The notes under the pieces are model-generated. The model had not been told where the DNA came from. It saw only the letters and a program-made list of their open reading frames with translations, and did not search any database. DNA of 64,000 nucleotides from Flavobacteriaceae bacterium PS02334. Lineage in GTDB: Bacteria > Bacteroidota > Bacteroidia > Flavobacteriales > Flavobacteriaceae. The stretch covers positions 372,001 to 436,000 of the forward strand of contig JASCOH010000001.1 in NCBI GenBank assembly GCA_029959295.1, given 5' to 3'. Positions within the stretch are counted from its first letter, which is position 1. Every line of letters begins with the position of its first letter. A program made the position numbers and the translations under genes. This document shows, piece by piece, positions 12,958 through 56,808 of this stretch.

Positions 12958-13380
12958 CTATTTCGGCTGCGGAGTTGTTCCTGTCGGAGTTGTTCCAGTT
13001 CCAGTAGGATTCGTCACTCCCGAAGGATTTGTTGTTGTCCCATTTGGATTTACAGTACCATTCGGATTTGTTGTTCCGTTAGGATTCGTTGTTCCGTTAG
13101 GATTAATTGACGCCGGATCAGTCGTAGTCGAAGCTGGCTTTGGCGCTCCACTCGGATCATAAGTCGAATTATTCGATCTAGTGCTTTTCATCGACGACGA
13201 TTCTGTGCTTTTTGCCTTGTCAGTCGCTGTTTTCTTCTTGTCCTTTTTCTGAGGATCTTGTTGCGTACTCGTTTTTGTAGTCGTAGAACTGCTGTTTGTC
13301 GTACTCGTTTTCGTATCCGTTTGTGCGGATGCTAAGCTGAATGCAAAAAATGCACCAAGCAATAAAAGATTCTTTTTCAT
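12958..13380 (-). CDS. Secreted low-complexity Ser/Thr/Pro/Asn-rich protein
   Basis: I do not recognise a family. The best start is the ATG at 13380, which gives the signal peptide KKNLLLLGAFFAFSLASAQ. The mature part is entirely low-complexity: a Ser/Thr-rich block, a Lys-rich block (PQKKDKKKTATDKAK), then a C-terminal series of NPNGTT-type repeats (about residues 100-125) grading into PTGT repeats. It looks like an unstructured surface or linker polypeptide. An upstream in-frame TTG at 13434 would bury the signal peptide and is rejected. Confidence 0.75.
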   Translation of the reverse strand: MKKNLLLLGAFFAFSLASAQTDTKTSTTNSSSTTTKTSTQQDPQKKDKKKTATDKAKSTESSSMKSTRSNNSTYDPSGAPKPASTTTDPASINPNGTTNPNGTTNPNGTVNPNGTTTNPSGVTNPTGTGTTPTGTTPQPK

Positions 13381-31153: not shown

Positions 31154-31174
31154 ATGAAAACAAAAGCTTAAATA

Positions 31175-31372
31175 ACCCAACCGTTTACCCCTGAAGACCC
31201 AACCGGTTGGGTAAGGTAACCTAACCGTTTACCCCTGATGACCCAACTGGTTGGGTTACATGACCCAACCAGTTACCCCTCGGTACCTAAAATTTTACCC
31301 TATACAACCCAAGCGGTTGGGTCACATGACCCAACCGGTTAGGTTATCCCACGCAAACGGTTGGGTCTAGCC
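31175..31372. repeat. Nine-unit array of 22-bp palindromic repeats
   Basis: Nine units begin at 31175, 31197, 31219, 31241, 31263, 31285, 31307, 31329 and 31351, exactly 22 bases apart. The best unit carries the perfect 16-bp palindrome ACCCAACCGGTTGGGT. Units 1, 3 and 5 end in a GTTTACCCCTGA-like variant, while 2, 4 and 7 end in GGTTGGGT plus about six bases, so a 44-bp super-repeat is visible on the left. A degenerate tenth unit may follow at 31373. The period is not a multiple of three and all frames have stops, so the pattern is kept at DNA or RNA level. It lies 88 bases before the next gene. Confidence 0.9.
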
Positions 31373-31460: not shown

Positions 31461-31982
31461 ATGCCGATTGACAATTTAGGACGCCTGCACCTTACTGCAG
31501 CACAGAAAACAAGCGTAAGCAGTGCTTTAACAACTATTGAAGCCATCTTGCTGACTGTTACGCAAAACTTAAGTTCAGAAGAGCGCCAGCGCTATGGCAG
31601 CGTAAATGAGACAAACAAATTGCTGGTCAATAAAGTTCGCGATTATTACCAAACACAGCCCACACTAGCCAGCACCGACATTGACTGGGTAGAATATGAG
31701 GCTGATTTTCAAGACCGGGCTTTTGCAGACACTAATGAGCAGCGCCTGCTGACCATCTTGAGGATGCTTACTGACTTTAAGATTGTTCATGACTTTGATA
31801 ATTATCAAGCTGCATTGACAGACTATGGCTATACGCAATACAAGGCGGGCACAAAAACGCCAGGTTTTACTGAAAAAGCCAGCGACATGAAACAGCTTTT
31901 TCCAAATGTTACAGGTGCTAACGGAAGCACAGCTAAAAAAGAGAACAGTGCGCCCGGCGCTGCAAGCGAGCCGGAAATATAA
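31461..31982 (+). CDS. Helical protein of unknown function
   Basis: 173 residues, no signal peptide. Predicted to be mainly helical (LTAAQKTSVSSALTTIEAILLTV, LSSEERQRYGSVNETNKLLVNKVRDYY), with a disordered Lys/Ala/Glu tail. It resembles a family I have seen often in Bacteroidota, about 150-200 residues with a NLSSEERQRYG-like motif, but which has no assigned function. Its base composition matches the surface-protein block, higher in GC than the men genes that follow. The 22-bp palindromic array sits just upstream and is the best candidate for its control region. The 31983-32208 gap holds nothing I can support. Confidence 0.8.
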   Translation: MPIDNLGRLHLTAAQKTSVSSALTTIEAILLTVTQNLSSEERQRYGSVNETNKLLVNKVRDYYQTQPTLASTDIDWVEYEADFQDRAFADTNEQRLLTILRMLTDFKIVHDFDNYQAALTDYGYTQYKAGTKTPGFTEKASDMKQLFPNVTGANGSTAKKENSAPGAASEPEI

Positions 31983-56059: not shown

Positions 56060-56449
56060 TCACTCTTCCGTATTCCTCTTTTTCAAAATCTCCTGCACTT
56101 CGTCTACTGACTTTTGATTCAGCCATTCTTGCACAGAAATTGTTTCTTCTTTTGGTTTTAGCGGTTTTATTTTATTGAGCTCGTGATTTTCTGGGAGGTT
56201 CATTTCTCGCAATGCAAAAAGGTCATTCGGAGTACAATTCAGGCTAGTGCAAAGAACCGTCATTTGGTTAAAATTCAACTGCACGATTTCACCTTTCAAC
56301 ATCTTATTGGCAGACGTAGTGTTGATTCCTAATTTTATAAGATAAGCATAGGGATGCAGAATATTCCTTGCTTTAAAAACCGGGTGCAGGTTTAAAACGA
56401 TGCTGCTTTTATTAATTTTTATATTCGATCTTTTATGGCTTGGAAACAT
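56060..56449 (-). CDS. Small HTH (Cro/C1-like) regulator
   Basis: 129 residues. An XRE-type helix-turn-helix is visible at about 25-80: ILHPYAYLIKLGINTTSANKML (helices 1-3), then VQLNFNQMTVLCTSLNCTPNDLF, the characteristic last helices of Cro/C1-like domains. The C-terminal 45 residues are charged (KPKEETISVQEWLNQKSVDEVQEILKK) and could be an oligomerisation helix. It is transcribed away from the 21-bp repeat array that fills its upstream region, making those repeats its most likely binding sites. No partner toxin or phage gene is nearby. Confidence 0.82.
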   Translation of the reverse strand: MFPSHKRSNIKINKSSIVLNLHPVFKARNILHPYAYLIKLGINTTSANKMLKGEIVQLNFNQMTVLCTSLNCTPNDLFALREMNLPENHELNKIKPLKPKEETISVQEWLNQKSVDEVQEILKKRNTEE

Positions 56450-56499
56450 AGTCTTGATTTTAAGAGTCTAATATAATGAATAAATCAATAACTATACAT

Positions 56500-56680
56500 T
56501 CTCTAGAACATTTTCTTCTATCTCTAGAAGCTTAGTTTCTATATCTAGAACCTTATATACAGTCTCTACAACCTTTTATACAATCTCTAAAAGCTTATCT
56601 TCTATCTGTAGAAACAAATATGTTATCTGTAAAACATTATATACATTCTGTAGAGTACTATATCCATTCTCTAGCTATAA
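56500..56680. repeat. Nine-unit array of 21-bp repeats upstream of the HTH gene
   Basis: A TCTCTAGAA-like core recurs with its inner base at 56503, 56524, 56545, 56566, 56587, 56608, 56629, 56650 and 56671, exactly 21 bases apart. The left four units keep CTAGA/CTACA; four later units read CTGTAGA or CTGTAAA. Between cores the sequence is A/T-rich (TATATAC, TTTATAC). In one plus frame the units read as heptads (SLEHFLL, YIQSLQP), but a TAG at 56533 breaks it. The array spans 50-230 bases upstream of the HTH start. The gap to 56808 otherwise shows nothing. Confidence 0.88.
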
Positions 56681-56808
56681 ATTGAAAATTAGACAGCTGA
56701 AAGCACCAAACAACGAAGCAAAACAGCAAAAAGAAAGGAGGAAACTCGATAGGGCTATCAAGAATCCTCCTTCTTATTATTTGAGATTGTTTCTAAGGTT
56801 TAGAAAAT

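Follow-up and report, generated by a model that had tools for sequence, protein, structure and literature searches.

The window analysed here is a 64,000-nucleotide stretch (C11:372001–436000) of a 4.59-Mb genome, on a contig (C11) of 1.04 Mb. Its minus strand carries a gene for a 129-aa HTH protein at 56060–56449. Upstream of this gene, nine direct repeats of 21 bp form an array at 56497–56685. In the direction of the gene, each unit begins with a TTCTAGAGA-like core and continues with a variable A/T-rich part. The lag-21 identity of the array is 0.667, and none of 5000 dinucleotide shuffles exceeded 0.471 (best of lags 10–35). TRF also returned the period 21, together with its multiples 63 and 84. 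The initial annotation had described nine 21-base repeats in exact phase, with variable AT-rich filler at fixed spacing, ending about 50 bases upstream of the HTH start; all of this was borne out, the measured distance from the proximal array end to the start codon (56449) being 47 bp. It had also ascribed a TCT(c/g)TAGAA-like core to all nine repeats. The core itself was recovered as TCTSTARAA-like on the plus strand, but units 3, 4, 8 and 9 deviate from it at one or more positions.

The spacer between the array and the start codon (56450–56496, minus strand) contains a weak candidate −7 box, TATATTAG, at 56468–56475. This box differs by one mismatch from TANNTTTG, the phylum's known −7 element (PMC6847099); no exact TANNTTTG box is present in the window's own promoter. 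Another tandem array, with an 18-bp period, is located elsewhere in the window at 13032–13199.

The HTH protein matches Pfam HTH_26 (E 6.7e-7) with 29.9 bits against a gathering cut-off of 22, which places it in this domain family. HTH_26 was its only Pfam match, no NCBIfam match was found, and family searches assigned no family to the C-terminal extension that makes up the last third of the protein. Its predicted structure has a mean pLDDT of 82, and the best Foldseek matches of the model in the PDB are XRE-type HTH domains, none of them at E ≤ 0.001. The nearest solved structure is SaPI2 Stl (8q86), whose HTH domain superposes over 68 columns (Foldseek E 2.3e-3) and which is likewise the top profile match (E 0.0023). 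The likeness is limited to the HTH part and implies no relation in the C-terminal extension or in function. Neither a plasmid collection (72,556 records) nor a phage collection contained a match to the protein, and viral contigs yielded two 22-residue matches and nothing more. On these searches, a phage or plasmid origin was rejected.

Coupling of the array to the HTH gene

A profile built from nine homologues was searched against 299 Flavobacterium genomes. The matches split cleanly into 39 full-length relatives (E ≤ 5.3e-19) in 27 genomes and short HTH_26 proteins (E ≥ 9e-11). With the addition of two homologues found in a different family of the order, five in further families of the class and phylum, and one in F. 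jejuense (L130), the comparison covered 47 full-length homologues. The family is patchy, being found in 5/346 genomes at the order level (E ≤ 1e-12) and in 7/395 at the phylum level (E ≤ 1e-10), each count including the window genome and other Flavobacterium.

Comparison of orthologous HTH loci, as proposed in the initial annotation, showed that the array accompanies the gene and keeps its period. A 21-bp array lies directly upstream of 46 of the 47 homologues (38/39 Flavobacterium members, 2/2 in the order, 5/5 in the class and phylum and 1/1 for F. jejuense) and of none of 21 short HTH_26 controls. L045 is the one exception, its 20-kb stretch being free of such an array. When the best period between 10 and 35 was determined in the 300 bp upstream, it was 21 for 38/39 members and for 0/21 controls. 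The controls are a selection from a longer match list and represent few independent cases, because by eye they are mostly orthologues of one another; two of them (L004 and L005) were anchored at the start of the match rather than at an ATG. Near-identical copies are counted among the 47 loci (L037 and L058 from one genome, L012–L014 from another), and statistics on 37 arrays leave out L058 and L045.

The wider control came from a tandem-array scan of 772,472 bases at 13 periods between 15 and 30. It covered 36 stretches, the window and 35 others of about 20 kb, centred on the genes of the family, so that the flanks served as background. The scan gave 37 matches at period 21, one at 18 and one at 22. 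Of the period-21 matches, 35 lie upstream of family genes, one is an orphan array that was fetched deliberately, and one lies beside a homologue of the 173-aa protein described below. No published description of such a module of HTH gene and array was found among the open-access papers listed in the literature searches.

The arrays consist of 8–15 units and end 1–199 bp before the start codon. Because the finder needs 8 units to begin with and then advances 21 bp at a time, the lower limit is a floor and the register is partly a matter of construction. From one unit to the next, 33% of positions change (370 units, 333 junctions), and yet the period is kept. Outside the units of the arrays, 23 further unit-like matches were found, six in register (including the four highest) and 17 out of register, many of the latter in low-complexity arrays. 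The mean G+C content of the arrays is 26%, and no A/T–G/C sub-periodicity near 10 was seen inside the unit.

The repeat sequence varies from locus to locus, even between syntenic orthologues, and the period is always 21. Among the syntenic orthologues L003, L031, L033–L035, L037 and L038, which are followed by the same gene of about 730 aa, HTH identity is 62–96% and array similarity ranges from 0.28 to 0.92 without any change of period. Some units of the window array and of L012–L015 look dyad-like by eye. For the arrays as a group, palindromic operators are unsupported: reverse-complement self-similarity was 0.335 versus 0.341 for column shuffles, and 0/37 arrays fell below 0.05.

Candidate promoter elements lie near the proximal end of some arrays. 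The TANNTTTG box occurs in the last 110 bp of 17/39 loci, where 3.3 are expected, and in 13 of the 16 such loci that have an array it lies beyond the array end. The box was also present in 6/21 controls, so it marks promoters and no more. At L012, the TTG of the last unit begins 20 bases before TATATTTG, at about the position of a −33 element. The upstream ORF is divergent from the HTH gene at 22/33 loci, and not in the window.

Array similarity tracks HTH similarity (Mantel rho 0.31, 0/5000), a correlation that could arise from common descent alone. Specific co-variation of the array with the putative recognition helix, beyond that with the rest of the protein, was unsupported (partial r 0.06, a value reached by 305 of 2000 permutations). 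A scan of 11-residue windows, uncorrected for multiple comparisons, gave its highest correlation around helix 2 (r 0.43). Since changes in the arrays have no specific tie to the putative recognition helix, we infer, rather than observe, binding by the HTH protein.

The neighbour clusters that recur at the loci comprise a synteny block, families that are large and common, a protein of 311 aa without a known family and T9SS-type surface proteins, of which the single one searched contains CHU_C and TIGR04131. No small partner gene common to the loci was seen among the clusters inspected. The 311-aa protein, with a length of 310–341 aa across loci, is the one encoded divergently from the HTH module at five of them (L078 8551–9486, L080 10500–11435, L084 10534–11478, L104 8404–9336 and L108 10531–11556).

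Orphan arrays and copies of the module

Arrays that match a resident core and have no intact HTH gene beside them were found in five of the six genomes searched with a resident core, eight in all. A core pattern search of the window genome returned four arrays: the cis array of the window HTH gene, the cis array of L008, a 53% paralogue of the window protein, and two orphans of nine units each (C11:92342–92519 and C44:426741–426916). One further single pair of core matches lies at C69:137629. The two orphans match different cis arrays best. The C44 orphan scores 16.4 with the window-array matrix versus 1.8 with that of L008, and the C11 orphan scores 22.5 with the L008 matrix versus 12.2 with that of the window array. 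Both lie between convergent genes, after hairpin-and-T-run sequences, and their neighbours are presumably concerned with heme uptake and pectate lyase.

The other orphans are two in G013, one in G249, two in G189 and one in G741; in G009, searched with its resident core at two mismatches, none was found. This count leaves out G228, where only a foreign core was used, and other resident cores such as that of L011. By position, three of the eight orphans are flanked by convergent genes and three lie in intergenic regions of tandem genes; of the other two, one has genes pointing away on both sides and one is at a contig end. Among five orphans tested, one (G013 C5) has an HTH remnant beside it, the truncated 5′ end of the gene. 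When five orphans were compared with five cis arrays, their lag-21 identities were similar (0.64–0.80 versus 0.68–0.76).

The genome G013 contains three copies of the module at three sites, 92–94% identical over 731–744 bp, which indicates that gene and array were copied together. The order of units is common to module copies L012 and L013 or L014 (0/2000) and is shared weakly between L012 and L015 (29/2000). L008 and its trans array also share unit order, at an offset of 2 (10/2000); no significant sharing was observed for the other cis–trans pairs tried. F. saliperosum retains a decayed remnant of the HTH gene (query residues 73–114), and the 420 bp before it contain no 21-bp array, a single case of joint loss of gene and array.

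Smaller sequences were also noted around the modules. A fragment of the 3′ end of the HTH module, 88% identical, lies at L084 14087–14223, away from an intact copy. Dispersed repeats of 130–145 bp occur near two of the G013 modules (L083 4062–4204, 5864–5990 and 8801–8943; L084 7021–7152 and 12783–12924) and may resemble integron attC sites.

A second protein family with similar arrays

The initial annotation had pointed to a second array with a period of nearly two turns in the same window, and it exists at about 31173–31370 with a period of 22 bp. It consists of ACCCAACCGGTTGGGT-type dyads and lies upstream of the gene for a 173-aa protein (31461–31982) of no known family and with no detected HTH, the model of which has a mean pLDDT of 60. 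Relatives of this protein were found in 30/249 Flavobacterium genomes. At the loci obtained for 30 of the 43 matches (L233–L262), a 21-bp array lies up- or downstream in 16/30, the window's own array being the 22-bp one. Judged by eye, the units are dyads whose half-sites can be exchanged; at L246, each side may carry ACCCC or ACGTC. In these neighbourhoods, the most frequent gene is shared by at most 3/30 loci, and the 311-aa neighbour of the HTH modules has no detectable relation to the 173-aa protein. The 173-aa and HTH families are unrelated, and both have 21/22-bp arrays.

Interpretation and comparison with known systems

The probable explanation is that the small XRE-type protein binds its own array cooperatively and represses itself, the orphan arrays being further targets or sinks. 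Array and HTH gene would form a single heritable module, and each module has its own repeat sequence. As 21 bp corresponds to about two helical turns, the protein could line up head to tail along one face of the DNA. The sites would fill cooperatively and thereby repress the protein's own promoter, which would lie within the gene-proximal end of the array or a little past it. Cognate orphan arrays in the same genome would be bound by the same protein and may serve as additional targets, or as sinks by which the level of free protein is set. Cooperative head-to-tail autorepression best explains the two-turn phasing, the placement upstream of the gene and the promoter at or near the proximal end, and the fixed spacing with changing sequence points to a self-controlling genetic switch of unfamiliar build.

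An operator array autoregulating the HTH protein had already been proposed in the initial annotation. The coupling at 46/47 loci supports it; the lack of palindromes in the group, the cognate arrays away from the gene and the missing link to the recognition helix go beyond it or count against it. The orphans between convergent genes have no obvious promoter role and count against the operator reading, as does L045 with its array-free stretch. We rate autorepression no higher than probable because helix co-variation is missing and because a second family without a detected HTH has similar arrays.

The orphan arrays suggest titration or bridging, and the array could instead be mainly a structural site, comparable to a centromere or to handcuffing, at which the HTH protein would bring cis and trans arrays together by bridging or condensation, for chromosome positioning or dosage sensing; autoregulation would then be secondary. 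Many-unit orphans with a cognate core, three of eight between convergent genes, would fit such a role, as would the fixed period over many units and the lack of a common small partner gene in the clusters inspected. We nevertheless consider it unlikely. The family is patchy (27/299 genomes), so it cannot be essential; the array almost always sits immediately before the gene, where an operator is expected; and no adjacent motor ATPase, such as ParABS or ParMRC partition has, was noticed among the neighbour clusters, which were inspected without a ParA or ParM model.

Two further explanations seem to us rather improbable, each to a similar degree. The first is that the repeats are satellite-like and spread either alone or as a small mobile unit that includes the HTH gene, leaving the orphans as relics. 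The three near-identical copies in one genome and the truncated HTH start beside one of five orphans are in line with this. However, the orphans are internally as regular as cis arrays, neutral satellites would hardly keep 21 bp across the phylum with differing sequences, and the plasmid and phage collections gave no match. The second is that the array is read not by the HTH protein but by a different factor (a nucleoid protein of the host, or a mechanism based on RNA), and that the adjacent gene merely depends on it. The arrays of the 173-aa family and the missing recognition-helix co-variation speak for this reading. In contrast, the neighbour is itself a protein of DNA-binding type, and a single common reader is hard to picture because the cores vary from locus to locus.

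A decayed or hidden heptad-coding gene, the other proposal of the initial annotation, can be dismissed: 21 is a multiple of 3, the plus frame from the ATG at 56476 is indeed broken by just one TAG, and a different plus frame stays open over the entire window array, but 24/37 arrays have no open frame and the spread of unit differences over codon positions gives no sign of coding. The fractions are 0.44, 0.32 and 0.37 at positions 1, 2 and 3 of the proposed frame in the window, the lowest (0.32) falling on the third position of the open frame, and 0.30, 0.32 and 0.29 in the pooled open frames of all arrays.

Beyond autorepression of single genes, the modules may belong to a chromosomal iteron-like system across Bacteroidota, in which a small HTH protein is joined by a cis array and by trans arrays of matching core, with mutual bridging or titration; we advance this tentatively. 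Each module would have a private address, by which the cell would read the copy number or position of distant sites. The repeats would be renewed in concert with the 21-bp phasing held, and the 173-aa family, with its half-site-swapping dyads, would put the same architecture to use in parallel.

This series of protein–site pairs, in which the sequence changes and the spacing stays exact, bears on the co-evolution of binding specificity and sites and on the number of phased sites that a switch requires. The orphan arrays pose the testable question of long-range titration or bridging on bacterial chromosomes. If binding is confirmed, orthogonal protein–array pairs could become parts for laboratory gene circuits.

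Among known systems, BldC is a small HTH protein that binds direct repeats of varying number cooperatively and head to tail, which shows that small HTH proteins can polymerise on such repeats (PMC5859096). However, BldC is a MerR-like wHTH protein that serves a regulon through short AATTXXXX(C) repeats, and the available text of that source mentions no fixed 21-bp array beside its gene (PMC5859096), whereas the present family has HTH_26 and a 21-bp period. XRE/Cro-C1 autoregulators share the fold and the likely autoregulation and often act as dimers on palindromic motifs (PMC12565409). In contrast to their palindromic operators, the arrays found here are direct repeats with no detected dyad symmetry.

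In iteron plasmids, phased direct repeats of about two turns, with lengths of about 17–22 bp, lie upstream of a gene for a DNA-binding protein and mediate autorepression and handcuffing. The present arrays are likewise phased direct repeats in this length range next to a gene. They differ in that the protein is of the XRE-type HTH class without a Rep match (HTH_26 alone in Pfam, nothing in NCBIfam), that they lie on a large chromosomal contig (1.04 Mb), with no match of the window protein among plasmid records, and that their repeat sequence varies between loci. Because the units are not palindromic as a group, the arrays resemble iterons more than ordinary XRE operators.
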